Shown here: one piece after another, positions 4,930 through 36,617 of the stretch
How the letters are laid out: each line of letters begins with the position of its first letter
Numbering within the stretch: the stretch's first letter is position 1
DNA from: Hyphomicrobiales bacterium
Lineage (GTDB): Bacteria > Pseudomonadota > Alphaproteobacteria > Rhizobiales > Aestuariivirgaceae
DNA length: 36,841 bases
Direction of reading: 5' to 3'
NCBI GenBank assembly: GCA_026982665.1
Contig: JALSGQ010000160.1
Coordinates: forward strand, 1 to 36,841
Notes under the pieces: model-generated
What the model saw: the letters and a program-made list of their open reading frames with translations, nothing else
What the model was told of the DNA's origin: nothing
Database searches by the model: none
Made by a program: the position numbers and the translations under genes

Positions 4930-5272
4930 ACCTAAGGGGCGAAGAGGGGGCGGGCAAACCCTCGGCGGCCTGTCTCAAGAGATTCGTGGTTGGCCCGAAT
5001 TGCCGGTTGCCGGCAGCGTGCCACATGCCTTGCGCCTGACCCGGCATCGGGAAGATGCGGCAGGTGTGCAACATCATTTTCTCCACAGATGATGCTTCGA
5101 CATGCCTGCACGCCACGGCAAGTGTGCAGAATCGCCACATTCTGTTGTAAAAAGGCGACAGCATGGTTGTCCGGAACGGCCTGCGGGGGCGGTTGCGTGC
5201 ATCCGGCGGGCGATTGTTTGCAAATGATGGGGCGTGGCTTCCGTGGCAAGCGGTGGAGAGGGTGGCAATGGC
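4930..5272. promoter_or_regulatory. glmS-ntrY intergenic region with a CAGAAT/ATTCTG dyad
   Basis: About 340 bp without a recognisable gene. The clearest structure is a perfect dyad, CAGAAT (5127-5132), 6-nt spacer, ATTCTG (5139-5144), followed by TTGTAAAAA. It may be an operator or the left part of the ntrYX promoter. I searched for a sigma-54 element (TGGCAC-N5-TTGC) on both strands and saw none with correct spacing. A GTG-initiated extension of ntrY (from 5234) overlaps the end of this region. Confidence 0.4.
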
Positions 5273-7645
5273 ATGACGGCGCGGGCGGGTGCCTCGCCCG
5301 CCATGATGCCGGTGGCCGAGCCGCCGGACATCAACGTGATGCGCCGCCCGCGCACCGGGCGCATCGGGCTGGCGCTGGTGCTGCTGGCGCTGGTGCTGGG
5401 GCTTGTCACCTATCTCGTCCTTACCGGCCTCACACCCATCAGGCCGACGCCGCAGCTGGTGTGGTGGCTGGTGGCGGCCAATGGCGTGATGGTGCTGCTG
5501 CTGGCGCTGCTCATTGCGCGGCAGGTGATATGGCTTGTGCGGGCGCGGCGGCGGCGGCTGGCCGGTGCGGGGCTGCATGGGCGCATTGTCGGCCTGCTGT
5601 CGCTGTTTGCGGCGGTGCCTGCCATCATCGTGGCGCTGTTCGCTTCCGTAACGCTCAATCGCGGGCTGGATGCGTGGTTTTCCGAGCGCATCGAGAGCAT
5701 CGTGCGGCGTGCCATCATCGTCTCGGAGGCCTACATCCAGGACAAGGTGGCGCAGGCGCGGGTGGATGTGCGCGGGTTTGCGCGGGAGATAGAGGCACGC
5801 AAGACACTGCTGGCGGCAGATCGTCCGCAGTTCCTGCAGGAGATCTCCGTGCTGGCGGCGGTGCGCGGGGTGCCGGCGGTGTTCATCCTCAACCCGCGGC
5901 AACAGCGGCTGGAGGCGGCCATCACGGCAGATGAGCGCATCCGCTTCCGCCCGCCGCCGCCGGATGCCTTCCGCATTGCCGATGAAGGCAAGGTGCTGGT
6001 AACGGGACCGGGGCCGGGCGACAACTTCATCCGCGCCATGATGAAGCTGGAAGAGCTGCCGGGGCTTTACGTGCTCATTTACCGGGCAGTGGATCCGGAG
6101 GTCATCCGCCAGCTCACGGCAGCGCAGCAGGAGCTGAACGAGTTCCTGTCGTTCAAGAAGCAGCGCTTCGGCATCCAGGTTACGTTCGCCTTCGTCTATG
6201 CCGGTGTTGCCTTCATCTTCCTGCTGGCGGCCATCTGGTTCGGGATGTGGCTGGCCGACCGGCTGGTGGCACCGGTGGTGGGGCTGATTGGTGCATCACG
6301 GCAATTGGCGCGGGGCAATTTCGACGTGCAGTTGCCGGAGCCGGAAGGGCAGGGCGACGTGGCCACGCTGCTGCGCGTGTTCAACCGCATGACCCGGCAA
6401 CTGAAGCAGCAGCGCCAGCAGCTGCTGGATGCCTACCATGAACTGGATGAGCGCCGCCGCTTCATGGAGGCGGTGCTGGCCGGGGTTTCCGCCGGCGTGA
6501 TGGGGCTGGATGCGCAGCAGCGCATCCGCCTGCTGAACCGATCGGCACGGGAGCTGCTGGGGTTGAAGCGGGAAAACCCCGTGGGCCGGTCGCTTGAAGA
6601 GGTGGTGCCGGCTTTCGCCCCGGTGCTGGAGAAGGCGAAGGCGCGGCGCTCCGGCTTCGGGCAGGATCACGTGCGCATGGAGGTGAACGGCGAGGAGCGC
6701 ACCTTCATGGTGCGCGCGGTGGTGGAGCGCGGCGACAAGGAGCTGTTCGGCTACGTCATCACCTTCGATGACACCACCGAGCTGCTGACGGCGCAGCGCA
6801 ATGCCGCCTGGGCCGACGTGGCGCGGCGCATCGCCCACGAGATCAAGAACCCGCTCACACCCATCCAGCTTTCCGCCGAGCGGCTCAGGCGGCGGTTCGG
6901 AAAGGAGATCACTTCCAGCCCGGAAGTGTTTGCCCAGTGCACGGACACCATCGTGCGGCAGGTGGAGGACATCGGCCGCATGGTGGACGAGTTCTCCTCC
7001 TTCGCCCGCATGCCGCAGGCGCACCCCGAACGGCAGGACATCGTGCAGGTGATCAAGGAGGCACTGCTGCTGCAACGGGTGAGCAGCGAGGACATCCGCA
7101 TAGAGCTGGAGCTGCCGGATGCACCGCTGGAGCTGGAGTTCGACCGCCGGCTCATCACCCAGGCGCTGACCAACCTGGTGAAGAACGCGCGCGAGGCCAT
7201 CGAGGCCCGGCGCGAGGAAGAGCCGGATCTGGAGGGGCGCATCATCGTGCGGCTGGTGCGGCAGGAAGAGGGCGTGGCCATCCAGGTGATCGACAATGGC
7301 AAGGGCCTGCCGAAGCAGGAGCGGCATCGGTTGACGGAGCCCTACATGACAACGCGCAAGAAGGGCACCGGGCTGGGGCTGGCCATCGTGCAGCGCATCA
7401 TGGAGGAGCATGGCGGGCGGCTGGAGCTGGCCGATGCGCCGCAGGGGCGTGGTGCGATGGTAAGCCTGTGGCTGCCACTGCGCGGCATGGGAGATGGCGC
7501 GCCTGATGGTGCGGCAGATGCCGGAACGGGGAATGCGCATGATGACGGTGGTGGCGCTGCGGCCGATACGGAGGAACGGGCGGCGGCCAGGAATGAAGCG
7601 GCCGGGCATGATGATGGCAAGCGTGAGGAGGAAGAACGCGCATGA
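5273..7645 (+). CDS. ntrY: Nitrogen regulation sensor histidine kinase NtrY
   Basis: A 790-residue membrane sensor kinase. The layout is: two N-terminal hydrophobic helices (about 30-52 and 62-84), a third near 106-126, an extracytoplasmic stretch, and a fourth helix near 300-322. Then come a HAMP linker (DRLVAPVVGL onward), a PAS domain (about 395-500) and a HisKA domain with RRIAHEIKNPLTPIQ, in which His522 is the phosphoacceptor. The ATPase domain carries NLVKNAREAIE (N box), DNGKGLP (G1) and KKGTGLGLAIV (G2). The last 50 residues are a low-complexity Gly/Ala/Asp/Glu tail. NtrY phosphorylates NtrX, and the genes overlap by 4 bp (ATGA), so they are translationally coupled. In alphaproteobacteria the pair affects nitrogen metabolism, redox response and envelope functions. 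I chose ATG 5273 because GGAGAGGG lies about 11 nt upstream; a GTG at 5234 would add 13 residues. Confidence 0.93.
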   Translation: MTARAGASPAMMPVAEPPDINVMRRPRTGRIGLALVLLALVLGLVTYLVLTGLTPIRPTPQLVWWLVAANGVMVLLLALLIARQVIWLVRARRRRLAGAGLHGRIVGLLSLFAAVPAIIVALFASVTLNRGLDAWFSERIESIVRRAIIVSEAYIQDKVAQARVDVRGFAREIEARKTLLAADRPQFLQEISVLAAVRGVPAVFILNPRQQRLEAAITADERIRFRPPPPDAFRIADEGKVLVTGPGPGDNFIRAMMKLEELPGLYVLIYRAVDPEVIRQLTAAQQELNEFLSFKKQRFGIQVTFAFVYAGVAFIFLLAAIWFGMWLADRLVAPVVGLIGASRQLARGNFDVQLPEPEGQGDVATLLRVFNRMTRQLKQQRQQLLDAYHELDERRRFMEAVLAGVSAGVMGLDAQQRIRLLNRSARELLGLKRENPVGRSLEEVVPAFAPVLEKAKARRSGFGQDHVRMEVNGEERTFMVRAVVERGDKELFGYVITFDDTTELLTAQRNAAWADVARRIAHEIKNPLTPIQLSAERLRRRFGKEITSSPEVFAQCTDTIVRQVEDIGRMVDEFSSFARMPQAHPERQDIVQVIKEALLLQRVSSEDIRIELELPDAPLELEFDRRLITQALTNLVKNAREAIEARREEEPDLEGRIIVRLVRQEEGVAIQVIDNGKGLPKQERHRLTEPYMTTRKKGTGLGLAIVQRIMEEHGGRLELADAPQGRGAMVSLWLPLRGMGDGAPDGAADAGTGNAHDDGGGAAADTEERAAARNEAAGHDDGKREEEERA

Positions 7646-9006
7646 GCGCCGACATTCTCATTGTTGATGACGAGGCGGACATTCGCGGGCTGATTGGTGG
7701 CATCCTGGAAGACGAGGGCTTCGAGGTGCGGCTGGCGGGCGACAGCACGCAGGCACTGCAGGAGATCAACGGCCGGCGCCCGGCGCTGGTGGTGCTGGAT
7801 ATCTGGCTGCAGGGCTCGAAGCTGGATGGGCTGGAGCTGCTGGAAGTCATCAAGTCGGCGCATCCGGATCTGCCGGTCATCATCATCTCCGGCCATGGCA
7901 ACATCGAGACGGCAGTGGCGGCCATTCGCAAGGGTGCGCACGACTACATCGAGAAGCCGTTCAAGGCCGACAAGCTGGTGCTGGTGGTGCAGCGCGCCCT
8001 GGAGCTTTCGCGCCTGAAGCGGGAGAACATGGAGCTGAAGAGCCGCGGGGGCGGTGATTGGGAGATGGTGGGCGATTCGCCGGCCATGCGGCAATTGCGG
8101 CAGATGATAGAGAAGGCGGCACCGGGCAATGCGCGGGTGCTGATCTCCGGCCCCTCCGGCTCGGGCAAGGAACTGGCGGCGCGCATGCTGCACGCGCGCT
8201 CCGGGCGCGCCAACGGACCGTTCGTGGTATTGCCGGCGGCGGCATTGTCGCCGGAACGCATGGAGGAAGAGCTGTTCGGGCGCGAGCCGGTGCCGGGGCA
8301 GCATGTCATCGGCAGGCTGGAAGAGGCGCATGGCGGCACCCTGTTCATCGACGAGGTGGCGGACATGCCGCTGCAGACCCAGAGCAAGGTGTTGCAGGTG
8401 CTCACCGGCCAGCCATTTCATCGGGTGGGTGGCTCGCGGCCGGTGCAGGTGGATGTGCGCATCGTTTCCTCCACCGCGCAGGACCTGCCGGCACTGGTGG
8501 AACAGGGGCGCTTTCGTGCCGACCTGTATCACCGGCTGGCGGTGATGCCGCTGCGGGTGCCGTCGCTGGCCGAGCGGCGCGAAGACATTCCGGCGCTGGT
8601 GGAGCATTTCATCGACCAGTATTCGCGCCAGACGGGGCACCCGGTAAAGCGCCTGTCCGAGGCGGCGCTGGCGGCATTGCAGGCGCGGGAATGGCCGGGC
8701 AACGTGCGGCAGCTGCGCAACTACGTGGAGCGGCTGATGATCCTGTTCGGTGGCGAGGATGTGGCGGAGATCACCCCGGACATGCTGCCGCCGGAAGAGG
8801 GGGCAGGCAGTGCGGCGGGCGGCGGGCTGGACATGGGCCAGCTGCTGGCGCTGCCGCTGAAGGAGGCTCGGGAAGCCTTCGAGCGCGAATACCTGAAGGC
8901 GCAACTGGCGCGCTTCTCCGGCAACATCTCGCGCACGGCGCAGGCCATCGGCATGGAGCGCTCGGCGCTGTATCGCAAGATGAAGGGGTTGGGGCTGCAG
9001 GGATGA
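7642..9006 (+). CDS. ntrX: Response regulator NtrX (AAA+/Fis type, GAFTGA missing)
   Basis: 454 residues. The receiver domain begins ADILIVDDEADIRG, with acidic residues D9/D10 and phosphoacceptor D53 (VVLDIWLQG), and K near IEKPFKA. The AAA+ domain has Walker A GPSGSGKE, Walker B GGTLFIDEVADMP and the arginine-finger region GRFRADLYHRL. A C-terminal Fis-type helix-turn-helix reads NISRTAQAIGMERSALYRKMKG. After EELFGRE the sequence runs PVPGQHVIGRLEEAHGG, so the GAFTGA loop that contacts sigma-54 is absent. This is known for alphaproteobacterial NtrX proteins, which therefore are not expected to activate sigma-54 promoters in the NtrC manner. It is coupled to ntrY by a 4-bp overlap and has no obvious terminator after it. 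Confidence 0.93.
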   Translation: MSADILIVDDEADIRGLIGGILEDEGFEVRLAGDSTQALQEINGRRPALVVLDIWLQGSKLDGLELLEVIKSAHPDLPVIIISGHGNIETAVAAIRKGAHDYIEKPFKADKLVLVVQRALELSRLKRENMELKSRGGGDWEMVGDSPAMRQLRQMIEKAAPGNARVLISGPSGSGKELAARMLHARSGRANGPFVVLPAAALSPERMEEELFGREPVPGQHVIGRLEEAHGGTLFIDEVADMPLQTQSKVLQVLTGQPFHRVGGSRPVQVDVRIVSSTAQDLPALVEQGRFRADLYHRLAVMPLRVPSLAERREDIPALVEHFIDQYSRQTGHPVKRLSEAALAALQAREWPGNVRQLRNYVERLMILFGGEDVAEITPDMLPPEEGAGSAAGGGLDMGQLLALPLKEAREAFEREYLKAQLARFSGNISRTAQAIGMERSALYRKMKGLGLQG

Positions 9007-31198: not shown

Positions 31199-32131
31199 TC
31201 ATGAGAGCTGGCTCAGCCGTGGCAGGTAGGCAGCGCCACGGGCGGCCAGGAAGTCCCACAGCGCGGCGGCGGTGGGCAGCAGGTGCTTCTCCTTGCGGCG
31301 CACCACCTGCCACTGGCGCATGATGGGCAGGCCGGGGGCGCGGATGATGCCGAGGCGCCCCTCCTGCAGCTCGTGTGCCACGGTGTGGGCGGAGATGAGT
31401 GCCACGCCCAGTCCGGCCATGACGGCCTGCTTGATGGTTTCGTTGGAGCTTATCTCCATGCCGATGTTCGGCTCTATGTCGAGGCGGGCGATGAGTCGCT
31501 CGGTCAGGGCACGGGTGCCGGAGCCGTTTTCGCGCAGCAGGAAGGTTTCGTGGGCAAGATCGGCGGGCTGCACGCGGCTGCGGCCGTTCAGCGGATGATC
31601 GGGCGGGCACACCAGCACGTGCGGATGCGGGCCGATGATGGATTGCTGCACCGCAAAGTCGCGTGGCGGGCGGCCCATGATGGCAAAGTCGAGTTCGTAT
31701 TCCATCAGGCGGCGGATGGTAGCCTCGCGGTTGCCGACGAACAGGCGCATTTCCACTTCTTCATGCTCGGCCCGGAAGTCGGCCAGCGCGGCGGGGGCAA
31801 AATACTTGGCGGTGGAAACGACGCCAACACGCACCAGCCCGGTGTGGGCGTGCAGCATGTTGCGCAGGGTCTGCGCCGAATCCTTCAGGATGCCGTCCAC
31901 CTGGTGCGCTGCTTCCAGCAATACCTGTCCTGCCAGGGTGGGGCGCATGCCATCCGGCGTGCGTTCCAGCAGCGGTGCGCCGGCATTCGATTCCAGCTGC
32001 TTCAATTGCAGGGAAATGGCCGGTGGCGTTACGTTCAGGCAACGGGCGGCGGCGGCAATGGAGCCGGTTTCCACCACGGCGGCGAAGGCGCGCAGCTGGC
32101 GCAGGGTGATTCCTTGCAGGTTCACCGGCAT
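31199..32131 (-). CDS. cbbR: LysR-type regulator CbbR of the Calvin-cycle operon
   Basis: 310 residues. The N-terminal LysR helix-turn-helix is ITLRQLRAFAAVVETGSIAAAARCLNVTPPAISLQLKQLE (about 8-47). The effector domain (about 95-295) has two periplasmic-binding-type lobes, with VGVVSTAKYFAPAALADF, ELDFAIMGRPP, LLRENGSGTR and AVMAGLGVALIS. The PPAISLQLKQLE helix and the position divergent from cbbF are characteristic of CbbR, which senses Calvin-cycle metabolites and activates cbb genes. Start 32131 has GGGAG about 11 nt upstream; ATG 32170 with GGAG 5 nt upstream is a real alternative (13 more residues). A -35/-10 pair (TTGAAA at 32222-32227, 17 bp, TAGAAA at 32199-32204, minus strand) overlaps the dyad, consistent with autorepression. 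Confidence 0.9.
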   Translation of the reverse strand: MPVNLQGITLRQLRAFAAVVETGSIAAAARCLNVTPPAISLQLKQLESNAGAPLLERTPDGMRPTLAGQVLLEAAHQVDGILKDSAQTLRNMLHAHTGLVRVGVVSTAKYFAPAALADFRAEHEEVEMRLFVGNREATIRRLMEYELDFAIMGRPPRDFAVQQSIIGPHPHVLVCPPDHPLNGRSRVQPADLAHETFLLRENGSGTRALTERLIARLDIEPNIGMEISSNETIKQAVMAGLGVALISAHTVAHELQEGRLGIIRAPGLPIMRQWQVVRRKEKHLLPTAAALWDFLAARGAAYLPRLSQLS

Positions 32132-32198
32132 GGATAAAGCGTCTCCCGTATTCCGGAGGGGTGTGTGCATTGGCTCCGGACTGCGATTGCATTCAGTT

Positions 32199-32241
32199 TT
32201 TCTAACGGGATTAGCAAGATATTTCAAATTTACTTTTGAAA
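32199..32241. promoter_or_regulatory. Probable CbbR operator and cbbR promoter
   Basis: A perfect dyad TTTCAAA (32222-32228), 6-bp spacer, TTTGAAA (32235-32241), plus a smaller dyad CTAA-N5-TTAG (32202-32214) next to it. On the minus strand TTGAAA-N17-TAGAAA makes a good cbbR promoter whose -35 lies in the left arm of the dyad. Adjacent dyads overlapping the regulator's own promoter are the usual LysR recognition/activation arrangement. Confidence 0.6.
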
Positions 32242-32328
32242 GCACCTGAGTCAGGAATGCGGCGCATGGCGCAGTTTTTTCTGCCGGCAGCAGAATGCTG
32301 GCGGGCCGCAGGCTGTGGAAAAACGCCG

Positions 32329-32352
32329 TGGGACGCGGGGCAAAACGTCCCA
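32329..32352. repeat. TGGGACG/CGTCCCA inverted repeat in the cbb control region
   Basis: TGGGACG (32329-32335) and CGTCCCA (32346-32352) are perfect inverted copies around a 10-nt spacer. It lies 230 bp before cbbF. It could be a second regulator site or a hairpin in the leader. No T-run follows. Confidence 0.5.
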
Positions 32353-32364
32353 TGCGTGGTTGCG

Positions 32365-32379
32365 GCATATTGCATATGT
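32365..32379. promoter_or_regulatory. Tandem GCATAT element sharing a 10-mer with the 9225 array
   Basis: GCATAT occurs at 32365-32370 and 32372-32377, 7 bp apart. The second copy is part of TTGCATATGT (32370-32379), identical to 9223-9232 upstream of the exported protein gene. It may be a shared regulator site; the factor is unknown. Confidence 0.35.
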
Positions 32380-32583: not shown

Positions 32584-33594
32584 ATGAGCGATTTCACGAC
32601 GCTGGAAGATTGGTTGCAGCAGGCTTGCGCCGGTGATGCGGCGCGGCAGGCGGCTGGCGAGACCTTGCTGAAGCTGGCGGCGGCGGCGCGCGATGTGTCG
32701 CACATGGTGGCGCGCGGGCCGATGGATGAAGCCGTGGCCGGCGTGGAGCGCAGCGAGCGCCCGGCGCGGTTCGACGAGAAGGCCGGCGAGCTGTTCATGG
32801 CGGCGTTGCAAGGTGCGCCGGTGGCGCAGATCGCGCGTGAGCGCGGCATGCTGCTGGAGGGCAGCGCCGGTGCGCCGGTGGCGCTGGCGATCGATGTGCT
32901 CAATGGCGTGCAGAACATTGTTGCCAACATTCCCACCGGTTCGTTCTTCTCCTTCCTGCCGGAGAAGGGGGAGGAAACCTTCGCCCAGCCCGGCACGGAG
33001 CAGGTGTGCGGCGGCTTCTTCATGTATGGGCCGCGCACCATGCTGGTGTTCTCCTTCGGGCAGGGCACGCAGGTGGCCAACATGGACCCGGAGACGGGGG
33101 TGTTTCACATCACCTCCGAGCAGCGCACGCTGCCGCCGGAGCCGGCGCGTGAATATGCCGCCAATGCCTCCAACTACCGGTTCTGGGATTCGGCCATTCG
33201 TGCCTACATCAACGACATGATCGACGGAGCCGATGGCCCGCGCGAGGTGGACTACAACATGCGCTGGGCCTCTTCGTTGCCGGCGGAGACGGTGCGCATT
33301 CTCAACCGTGGCGGCATTTTCCTGTATCCGGGCGATGCGCGCCCGGGGCACCGGGAAGGGCGCATGCGGCTGCTGTTTCATGCCAACCCGGTGGCGCTGG
33401 TCGTCGAGCAGGCGGGCGGGGCGGCCACCGATGGCGAGCAGCGGATACTGGAGAAGGTGGCGGGTGCGCGTGATCAGCGCACGCCACTGATTTTCGGCAG
33501 CCCGACGGAGGTGGAGCGGGTGAAGCGCTATTACGAGCTGCCCATGGGGGGCGCGCACTCGCCGCTGTTCTCGCGGCGCGGGCTGTTTCGCTGA
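32584..33594 (+). CDS. cbbF: Fructose-1,6-bisphosphatase class I family protein, active site degenerate
   Basis: 336 residues in the cbbF position. The family pattern is clear: PGTEQVCGGFFMYGP (136-150), NASNYRFW (194-201), YNMRWASSL (224-232), RGGIFLYPGD (242-251), VEQAGGAATDG (274-284). But residues that define the active site in characterised class I enzymes are changed. The DPLDGSSN box reads DVLNGVQN (104-111): the Asp118-type ligand is kept as D104, but Asp121 is Asn107. The SEE segment reads ARE (84-86), so the Glu97-type ligand is Arg85. The Glu280-type ligand is His266 (LLFHANP). The upstream GDxxKxLD segment is reduced to ARFDEK. The frame is intact and codon use normal, so it is not a recent pseudogene. 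It may be an inactive or regulatory paralogue, or have a new activity, with a working FBPase/SBPase elsewhere. ATG 32584 follows AGGGTGGG. Confidence 0.85.
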   Translation: MSDFTTLEDWLQQACAGDAARQAAGETLLKLAAAARDVSHMVARGPMDEAVAGVERSERPARFDEKAGELFMAALQGAPVAQIARERGMLLEGSAGAPVALAIDVLNGVQNIVANIPTGSFFSFLPEKGEETFAQPGTEQVCGGFFMYGPRTMLVFSFGQGTQVANMDPETGVFHITSEQRTLPPEPAREYAANASNYRFWDSAIRAYINDMIDGADGPREVDYNMRWASSLPAETVRILNRGGIFLYPGDARPGHREGRMRLLFHANPVALVVEQAGGAATDGEQRILEKVAGARDQRTPLIFGSPTEVERVKRYYELPMGGAHSPLFSRRGLFR

Positions 33595-33663: not shown

Positions 33664-34542
33664 ATGTCTGTCAAGCATCCCATCATTTCGGTAACCGGCT
33701 CATCGGGTGCGGGTACCTCCACGGTGAAGCGCACGTTCGAGCAGATCTTCCGGCGCGAGGGCATCAAGGCTGCCTTCATCGAGGGTGATGCCTTTCACCG
33801 TTATGACCGCATGGCAATGAAGGAGGCGATGAAGAAGGCGGAGGAAGAGGGCAACCCGCACTTCTCGCACTTCGGCCCGGAGGCCAACCTGCTGGACGAG
33901 CTGGAGAAGGCCTTCAAGCGCTATGCCGAAACCGGCGTGCTGCGCACCCGCCATTACGTGCACGATGACGAGGAGGCGGAGAAATACGGTGTGCCGCCGG
34001 GCAAGTTCACCGAGTGGGAGGAGATTCCGGCGGGTGAATCCGATCTGCTGCTGTATGAGGGGCTGCATGGCGCGGTGGTTACCGACGAGGTGAACGTGGC
34101 CCAGCATGCCGACCTGAAGATCGGCGTGGTGCCGGTGATCAACCTGGAGTGGATCCAGAAGATTCATCGCGACAAGAAGGAGCGTGGCTACACCACCGAG
34201 GAGGTGAGCGCCACCATCCTGCGCCGCATGCATGACTACGTGCATTACATCTGCCCGCAGTTCTCGCAGACGGACATCAACTTCCAGCGGGTGCCGACGG
34301 TGGATACCTCCAACCCGTTCATCGCCGAGTGGATTCCGACGGTGGGTGAATCGATGGTGGTGATCCGCTTCAAGGATCCGCATGGCATCGACTTTCCCTA
34401 CCTGCTGTCGATGATCAAGGACAGCTTCATGACGCGGGCGAACACCATCGTGATTCCGGGCGACAAGCAGGACCTGGCCATGCAGCTGATCCTGACGCCG
34501 ATGATCAACCGGCTGATCGAGCGCAAGCAGCGGGCCATCTGA
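33664..34542 (+). CDS. cbbP: Phosphoribulokinase (bacterial octameric type)
   Basis: 292 residues, the length of the class I bacterial enzyme. The P-loop is GSSGAGTST (12-20), followed by [10 protein letters not shown], where the conserved Asp and His/Arg contact substrate. [31 protein letters not shown], the Walker-B-like [12 protein letters not shown], and [18 protein letters not shown] are all family blocks. It phosphorylates ribulose-5-P to ribulose-1,5-bisphosphate, the CO2 acceptor for RuBisCO, so it marks a Calvin cycle. Octameric forms are usually activated by NADH. GGAGGGG precedes the ATG by about 6 nt. It lies 69 bp after cbbF and 95 bp before cbbT. All signature residues look intact, in contrast with the neighbouring FBPase-family protein. 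Confidence 0.97.
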
Positions 34543-34637: not shown

Positions 34638-36617
34638 ATGAGTAACGTGAGCCTGAAGGACATGGCCAATGCCATCCGCGCCCTGTCCATGGATGCGGTG
34701 CAGAAGGCCAACTCCGGCCATCCGGGCATGCCCATGGGCATGGCAGATGCGGCCACCGTGCTGTGGACGAAGTTCCTGAAGTTCGATGCGAAGGCGCCCG
34801 ACTGGGCGGATCGCGACCGCTTCGTGCTGTCCGCCGGGCACGGCTCCATGCTCCTGTATTCGCTGCTTTACCTGAGCGGTTTCAAGCAGGCCACCATCGA
34901 CGAGATCAAGAACTTCCGGCAGATCGGCTCGCGCATGGCGGGGCATCCGGAATATGGCCACCTGGAGGGCGTGGAGGTTACCACCGGCCCGCTTGGCTCC
35001 GGCCTTGCCACGGCCGTGGGCATGGCGCTGGCGGAGCGCATGATGAACGCCCGCTATGGCGATGAGCTGGTGGATCATTACACCTGGGTCATCGCCGGCG
35101 ACGGCTGCCTGATGGAGGGCGTCTCGCACGAGGCCATCGATCTTGCCGGGCATCTGAAACTCAATCGCCTCATCGTGCTGTGGGACGACAATTCCATCAC
35201 CATCGACGGTGCCACCGATGTCGCCACCTCGATGGATCAGCTCAAGCGCTTCGAGGCCGCCGGCTGGCGCACGCTGAAGTGCGACGGGCACGACTTCGAT
35301 TCCATCGAGAAGGCGCTGGCCGAGGCGAAAAACTCCGACGCGCCGGTGCTCATCGACTGCAAGACCATCATCGGTTTTGGCGCGCCCAACAAGCAGGGCA
35401 CGGAGGCCACCCACGGCGCGCCGCTGGGCGAGGACGAGATCGCCGCGGCGCGCGAGGCGCTGGGGTGGAATCATCCGCCGTTCGAGGTGCCGGAAGACAT
35501 CCTGAGCGCCTGGCGCGAGGCCGGCAGCCGTGGTGCGGCGGAGCGCGAGGCATGGGAGAAGCGGCTGGCCGCATCCCCGAAGAAGGCGCAGTTCGAGGCC
35601 GACGTGGCGAGCAAGGTATCGGACGAGACGCTGGCCGCCATCAACGACTTCAAGAAGAAGCTGGCGGAGGAGAAGCCGAAGCTGGCCACGCGGCAGGCCT
35701 CGCAGAAGACGCTGGAGGTCATCATTCCGGCGCAGGAAAACATCATTGGCGGTTCTGCCGACCTGACGCACTCCAACCTGACCATCGTCAAGGGCATGGA
35801 GTCGGTGAAGCCGGGTGATTATGCCGGGCGCTACATCCACTACGGCGTGCGCGAGTTCGGCATGGGCTGCGCCATGAACGGCATTGCCCTGCACAAGGGC
35901 TTCCTCAACTACGGTGGCACCTTCCTCATCTTCTCCGACTACATGCGCGGGGCCATCAGGCTGGCAGCGCTGCAGGGGCTGCCCGTAACCTACGTCTTCA
36001 CCCACGACTCCATTGGCCTGGGCGAGGACGGGCCGACGCACCAGCCGGTGGAGATCCTGCCGGCGCTGCGTGCCATCCCGAACCTGCGGGTGATCCGCCC
36101 GGCGGACGCGGTGGAGACGGCAGAAGCCTGGGCAGTGGCGTTGCAGTCCGAAAGCACGCCGACGGCGCTGGCGCTGTCGCGGCAGGGCTGGGAGGCGCTG
36201 CGCACCGAACACACGGATGAAAACCTTGTGGCAAAGGGTGCCTACGTCATTCATGGCGACGCCGAAAACCGCGACGTAACGCTGCTGGCTACCGGTTCGG
36301 AAGTGTCGCTGGCGGTGGCGGCGGCGGAAACGCTTGCCGGCGAGGGCATCAAGGCAGCGGTGGTTTCCATGCCGTGCTGGGAGCTGTTCGAGGAGCAGGA
36401 TGCCAGCTATCAGGCCGCCGTGCTGGGCGATGCGCCGCGGGTGGCGGTGGAGGCCGCCGTGGAGATGGGCTGGCAGAAGTGGCTGGGCGAGAATGGTCGT
36501 TTCATCGGCATGAAGTCGTTCGGTGCCTCCGGCCCCGGTGGTGCGCTTTACGAGCACTTCGGCATCACGGCCGAGAATGTCGCCAAGGCAGCGAAGGAAC
36601 TGCTGGGCCAGGCCTGA
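34638..36617 (+). CDS. cbbT: Transketolase
   Basis: 659 residues. The thiamine-diphosphate domain has [14 protein letters not shown], the [16 protein letters not shown] block, and the GDG...N motif ([15 protein letters not shown] to [11 protein letters not shown]). The pyrimidine domain has GSADLTHSN, the conserved glutamate region YGVREFGMG, and [21 protein letters not shown]-terminal domain follows. It moves two-carbon units between sugar phosphates in Calvin-cycle regeneration and the pentose phosphate pathway. CGAGGAGC lies 8-12 nt before the ATG. Position after cbbP and before gap supports the cbbT name; no separate transketolase is visible in the window. Confidence 0.96.

Follow-up and report, generated by a model that had tools for sequence, protein, structure and literature searches.

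Erosion of catalytic residues in a conserved Calvin-operon fructose-1,6-bisphosphatase homologue and its possible non-catalytic role

Introduction

Why would a fructose-1,6-bisphosphatase (FBPase) gene be kept in its Calvin operon when several residues of its active site have been replaced? This question is raised by the cbbF gene of the window, the whole 36,841-nucleotide stretch of DNA analysed here (contig JALSGQ010000160.1 of a Hyphomicrobiales bacterium). An initial annotation, made from the sequence of the window, described the product as a maintained pseudo-enzyme or a new activity and proposed three roles: a regulator that binds fructose-1,6-bisphosphate (FBP) or AMP, a partner of the adjacent phosphoribulokinase (PRK), or a phosphatase with another metal set.

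Results

The cbb locus and its genome

The operon order is cbbR, cbbF, prk and tkt, with cbbR on the reverse strand and the other three genes on the forward strand (Table 1). The Calvin-operon position given to cbbF in the initial annotation is borne out by this arrangement, and its 336-residue frame is real and intact. The protein scores above the gathering score of both FBPase domains (PF00316, 51.9 bits against 34.8; PF18913 or FBPase_C, 122.8 bits against 27) and falls under the curated cut-off of the NCBIfam equivalog NF006780 (335.5 bits against 358). The window genome comprises 2.13 Mb in 167 contigs with a completeness of 100. It has one match to the RuBisCO large subunit, and RuBisCO is present in 11 of the 11 genomes of the genus, whose members are uncultured CO2 fixers. 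A search of the window genome for an FBPase of the PF01950 family found none.

Table 1. Features of the cbb locus, with positions in the window
Feature	Position	Strand	Basis
Divergent LysR-type regulator, cbbR by position	31199..32368	-	LysR_substrate 193.4 bits, HTH_1 77.8 bits
cbbF-derived putative pseudo-FBPase, 336 aa	32584..33594	+	Pfam FBPase and FBPase_C, NCBIfam NF006780
Altered catalytic loop, residues 42-64	32707..32775	+	Length of 23 residues; 27-28 in the 41 canonical relatives
R85-E86-R87 at the SEE motif	32836..32844	+	Glu97 kept; Ser96 and Glu98 replaced
DVLNGVQN at the DPLDGSSN box	32893..32916	+	Asp118 kept; Asp121 replaced by Asn107
His266 in place of the metal ligand Glu280	33379..33381	+	Alignment; His in 10/10 full-length genus rows
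C-terminal tail SPLFSRRGLFR, hallmark of prk-adjacent CbbF	33559..33591	+	Pattern LFxxR[GST][LF][FLM]
prk (phosphoribulokinase)	33664..34542	+	PF00485, 241.3 bits
tkt (transketolase)	34638..36617	+	Name recognised from sequence; homologue adjoins prk in related loci

Active-site residues

In class I FBPases, according to excerpts of PMC5639204 and PMC3785478, metal site 1 consists of Asp118, Asp121 and Glu280, metal site 2 of Glu97, Asp118 and the carbonyl of Leu120, while Asp74 and Glu98 hold catalytic waters. In the window CbbF, two of the three ligands of site 1 are lost, Asp121 and Glu280 being replaced by Asn and His; both of these changes had been reported in the initial annotation and are borne out by the alignment. 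The GDxxKxLD segment is degraded, as had also been claimed, and is shorter as well: nothing of the loop motif NxxGDxQKxLD is left except its final Asp (Asp64, corresponding to Asp74 of the pig enzyme), and the position of Asp68 is occupied by Glu.

The SEE motif had been read as ARE, which is one residue out of register. The ungapped context, PVAQIARER against PVAVMGSEE, gives R-E-R, with Ser96 replaced by Arg85, Glu97 retained as Glu86 and Glu98 replaced by Arg87. The ligands of metal site 2 are therefore still in place (Glu86, Asp104 and Leu106 for Glu97, Asp118 and Leu120), Glu86 being unchanged in all ten full-length genus rows, and the catalytic-water pair has kept Asp74 and lost Glu98, which is Arg, Lys or Ser within the genus. 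Because of this misalignment, and because Glu97, Asp118 and Asp74 are kept, the claim that most catalytic metal ligands have been replaced was too strong, although the losses of Asp121, Glu280 and Glu98 stand.

The sugar-phosphate pocket still has Asn197, Arg227, Tyr248 and Arg260, and of the 98 columns with a conservation of 90% or more among 41 canonical rows the window protein keeps 75. An AlphaFold2 model built on an alignment of seven rows had a mean pLDDT of 45.7, and no reading was drawn from it. Viral contigs were scanned twice for additional rows, one scan giving none and the other a single relative. Judged from its residues, the window CbbF is very probably not an efficient FBPase. 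The kept Glu97, Asp118 and Asp74 suggest that a metal site and some hydrolysis may persist in the genus. The genus protein, which has also kept its sugar-phosphate residues, may bind FBP or SBP or hydrolyse weakly.

Fixation and purifying selection within the genus

Every one of the 11 genus genomes carries a CbbF homologue free of stop codons, which in G004 is divided between two contigs; the ten besides the window protein itself are 58-88% identical to it. Seven residues are invariant in the ten full-length genus rows (Asp64, Arg85, Glu86, Asp104, Asn107, Phe265 and His266), each with mixed codons, as with CAT and CAC for His266, while residue 87 is Arg, Lys or Ser. The novel Asn107 and His266 are thus shared by the homologues, and in the motif census 12 of 12 genus rows are altered at the sites they cover. 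The pattern is more than accidental, 110 of the 130 rows in that census having kept all seven acidic positions. Across the ten genus proteins 132 of 348 residues are invariant, counting 12 residues upstream of the start, and 10 columns, one of them a gap column, are changed in all genus rows.

We estimated dN/dS by the Nei-Gojobori method for ten genus pairs. Six close pairs (dS 0.44-0.70) gave 0.15-0.25 for cbbF, and four deeper pairs (dS 0.60-0.74), in which dS is taken to be saturated, gave 0.34-0.43. The operon neighbours gave 0.04-0.09 (prk), 0.07-0.21 (tkt, five pairs) and 0.11-0.20 (cbbR), so that the close-pair values of cbbF are 2-5 times those of prk and similar to those of tkt and cbbR. 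Close canonical CbbF pairs in genus g44 gave 0.07-0.20; a canonical median of 0.64 (297 pairs, dS 0.25-0.8) was set aside, as it mixes in distant pairs whose dS is presumed saturated. Since dN/dS is 0.15-0.25 and the new residues are invariant while their codons vary, the gene is not decaying. Purifying selection is found together with the loss of catalytic residues, and the view of a maintained rather than randomly decaying gene is upheld by its genus-wide presence, by dN/dS well below 1 and by the fixed new residues.

The second FBPase, GlpX, is also eroded

A class II FBPase, GlpX, was found in 8 of the 11 genus genomes; the window copy lies at G000:C21:21188-22102. The catalytic site listed for E. 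coli GlpX in an excerpt of PMC5892879 comprises Asp33, Glu57, Asp85, Glu88, Thr90, Tyr119, Arg166, Asp188 and Glu213, without Asp61, and the same excerpt gives the Thr84Ala variant of M. tuberculosis GlpX (Thr84 corresponding to Thr90) as inactive. The genus copies (L067-L074) share the substrate-side residues of the class, retaining Glu57, Glu88, Tyr119, Arg166 and Asp188, but they lack Asp61, Asp85 and Thr90 in 8 of 8 cases, Asp33 in seven and Glu213 in five. In the wider order Asp85 is present in 30 of 30 rows and Thr90 in 29 of 30. Pairwise dN/dS of the genus GlpX is 0.10-0.31.

The search for another complete FBPase, suggested in the initial annotation, thus had an unexpected outcome: the genus does have GlpX, though without some of its essential residues, and a pyrophosphate-dependent phosphofructokinase (PPi-PFK) is present besides. 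The idea that GlpX is an intact backup was dropped once these losses and the PPi-type PFK motif had been found; by its residues the genus GlpX resembles a further pseudo-FBPase more than a backup enzyme. In genus g8 of the same family, Thr90 is Ser or Asn and Asp85 is kept (L075 from G026, L076 from G030, L078 from G017). Two of these genomes, G017 and G030, have Asn at Thr90, their CbbF being canonical and a PFK absent. The erosion of GlpX therefore does not depend on PPi-PFK alone, and from this pattern it may have begun before the change in CbbF.

A PPi-dependent phosphofructokinase usually accompanies the altered CbbF

The PPi-PFK was found in 8 of the 11 genus genomes, six by family search and two as fragments at contig edges. 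It was assigned to the PPi type by the motif GGGDSADT...PKTVDND in the relatives, the Asp and Lys of which we take to be the mark of PPi use; of the copy in the window genome only the C-terminal 23 residues are present, on the edge of a contig, and these do not cover the motif. A preliminary finding that PPi-PFK is absent from the window genome was dropped when this fragment was found. At six cbbR-cbbF-prk loci (G001, G002, G005, G007, G010 and G026, the last belonging to genus g8) the PPi-PFK gene lies within ~1.3 kb of cbbR. The enzyme was searched for and not found in G004, G006 and G009 (96, 84 and 88% complete), and these genomes therefore have no visible intact enzyme for the FBPase step.

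Taking as the same PPi-PFK any that is at least 70% identical, we found it in 5 of 7 lineages with a degraded CbbF; of the 41 prk-linked genomes with a canonical one, 4 have it (Fisher p 0.0013, ignoring relatedness). CbbF is canonical despite the same PPi-PFK in G036, G094, G130 and G370, and the genus-type PPi-PFK was not found in the degraded lineages G073 and G246. An excerpt of PMC4287430 describes in vitro activity of the Methylococcus PPi-PFK towards both FBP and SBP, and names PPi-PFK as the likely replacement in autotrophs that lack the genes for FBPase and SBPase.

Such a replacement could also leave CbbF as a useless relic in slow decay, undeleted and with its frame kept to avoid polar effects on prk. 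In a sample of 397 genomes from the order, 23 have this PPi-PFK and 13 of the 23 are without a CbbF match, a match being an E value better than 0.01 with the window protein as query (one of the 13, G080, has a weak NF006780 match at 1.2e-9); the most diverged CbbF copies, moreover, are badly eroded. These points fit decay, which nevertheless seems quite improbable for the genus, where no stop codon occurs in 11 genomes down to 58% identity, dN/dS is well below 1, the novel residues are invariant and the window protein retains the conserved columns counted above. We favour the reading, which is probable on the sequence evidence, that catalysis has passed to PPi-PFK and that CbbF survives as a sugar-bisphosphate-binding or scaffold partner.

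CbbF has been degraded repeatedly across the order

We compared 130 CbbF/Fbp rows, E. coli included: those of 106 of 184 matched genomes, together with rows for the genus, the family and second copies. Four genes appear twice in this set, and some high scorers and weak or partial matches were left out (e.g. G080, G162, G216, G253 and G305). All seven acidic positions, with Asp or Glu accepted at 68, are kept in 110 rows. The other rows are the 12 of the genus, six single prk-linked lineages (G026, G051, G083, G189, G073 and G246), the second copy G370b and the broken frame of G383. Among second copies, L214 (G370:C2:63128-64135) is a second class I FBPase with DPIEGSSE, Gln for Glu280 and the tail LFGHRGLF, and has no prk in the fetched flank.

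A tree was built without E. coli, L033 (half of a split gene) and L201 (a broken frame, from a locus with a broken cbbR and tkt as well). The genus forms one clade with support 99. G026 groups with canonical g8 sequences (90) and G083 with canonical f13 sequences (97), and on this placement at least these losses look separate. G051 is unresolved, G189 stands beside the genus (support 83), and G189, G073 and G246 are long branches whose placement is unsure.

We then compared the 98 conserved columns in nine degraded rows, three from the genus and one from each other lineage. Glu98 is present in 41 of 41 canonical rows and in 0 of 9 degraded rows, six of which have Lys or Arg there. None of the nine keeps Gly57, Asp58 or Gln60 of the loop, and each of the seven degraded lineages has a catalytic loop of abnormal length (11 to 40 residues). 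A group of Gly, Trp and Pro positions, among them Gly137, Trp201, Gly218, Trp228, Gly243, Gly244 and Pro249, is kept in 9 of 9. G073 and G246 retain only 49 and 47 of the 98 columns; their proteins (L208 and L209) share 34-35% identity with the window protein and have lost the active site but not the tail. The substrate pocket is eroded in these two and in G189, and FBP binding is therefore not the common kept function.

This comparison bears on whether CbbF is still an active phosphatase with another metal set. Asn and His are able to bind metals, and on this reading site 1 would be rebuilt from Asp118, Asn107 and His266 to take up Mn, Fe or Zn, while Glu97, Asp118 and Leu120 would keep site 2 and Arg85 and Arg87 would hold phosphate. 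The invariance of Asp64, Glu86, Asp104, Asn107 and His266 in the ten full-length genus rows and the three genus genomes without visible PPi-PFK speak for such an enzyme. However, Glu98 is lost in all seven degraded lineages and the catalytic loop is shortened, the Asn/His pair is not common to the other six lineages, and PPi-PFK is present in most of the genus, so that we consider an other-metal phosphatase unlikely.

The C-terminal tail accompanies an adjacent prk

All 63 prk-adjacent rows, which comprise 59 distinct sequences, end in the tail pattern. It also occurs in 1 of 6 rows without an adjoining prk, as judged on a flank of ~1.5 kb, and in 36 of 60 rows for which no flank was available; it is absent from E. 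coli Fbp. The degraded rows have kept it: all six tail columns are present in seven rows, five in G083 and four in G246. Moreover, cbbF is directly followed by prk in each of the seven degraded lineages, and cbbR lies upstream in five of them, not being seen in G051, where the contig starts, or in G073.

It could be argued that the 3' end is kept as DNA or RNA, for ribosome binding or coupling to prk, rather than as a peptide, and the tail codons do stop ~70 bases before prk. However, prk has its own ribosome site, GGAGGGG, and among columns with an invariant amino acid the codon varies at 7 of 9 in the tail and at 104 of 119 in the rest of the gene. The tail codons thus vary much like the rest of the gene, and therefore the peptide is what is kept; conservation of the nucleic acid is a very remote prospect.

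Together, what the degraded lineages have kept suggests that CbbF makes contact with another protein for a purpose other than catalysis. Among the three roles proposed in the initial annotation, conservation of the tail and of the prk position would favour that of a partner over an FBP or AMP sensor or an other-metal phosphatase. The position of prk is weak evidence for PRK as the partner, because that position is ancestral.

Discussion

On the reading we favour, a reversible PPi-PFK would carry out the steps from FBP to F6P and from SBP to S7P, which would free CbbF from hydrolysis. What remains would be a second function already present in canonical CbbF, a contact made through the tail with an operon partner, for which PRK is a first guess only. 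In the window genus this contact might be tuned by sugar-bisphosphate binding in the pocket of Asn197, Arg227, Tyr248 and Arg260. Replacement of Glu98 by Lys or Arg, seen in four lineages, may result in binding without cleavage, and GlpX could have become a second protein of this regulatory or scaffold kind in the window genus. More tentatively, CbbF of Calvin operons may have a second, non-catalytic job throughout the order, carried by the LFxxRGLF tail and directed at an operon partner; CbbF would then have turned repeatedly into a dedicated regulatory or scaffold subunit once PPi-PFK had made hydrolysis dispensable.

The window CbbF resembles class I FBPases of the proteobacterial CbbF type (NF006780; PF00316 and PF18913) in domains, length, operon position, the sugar-phosphate residues Asn, Arg and Tyr, and the C-terminal tail. 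It differs from them in the replacement of Glu98, Asp121 and Glu280, in the shortened loop and in its sub-cut-off NF006780 score. The nearest physiological parallel we found is the Calvin cycle with PPi-PFK of Methylococcus capsulatus and of chemosynthetic symbionts, the one of Solemya velum among them, where, as in the genus, an autotroph has a PPi-PFK able to replace FBPase and SBPase; in those systems, however, the excerpt of PMC4287430 describes FBPase and SBPase genes as absent, whereas the genus keeps an altered CbbF and mostly GlpX too. Literature searches, limited to open-access papers, brought up no description of an inactive CbbF or of a pseudo-FBPase in the Calvin cycle.

If the partner reading is true, a textbook enzyme of the Calvin cycle has a concealed function besides catalysis, revealed by repeated catalytic losses. 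The degraded CbbF proteins would be natural separation-of-function proteins, with the conserved tail named as the candidate. Annotation of cbbF or glpX would then be no proof of FBPase activity when the Calvin cycle is reconstructed from metagenomes.

Two minor observations concern the same genome. Positions 5234-9006 of the window encode an NtrY-like sensor kinase and, after it, a sigma-54 response regulator. In addition, the weak second PF00316 match of the window genome (L002, G000:C111:41332-41544) lies in a frame with VDPVDGSDN, which we take to be inositol-monophosphatase-like; by its sequence, this protein could be a candidate promiscuous sugar phosphatase.
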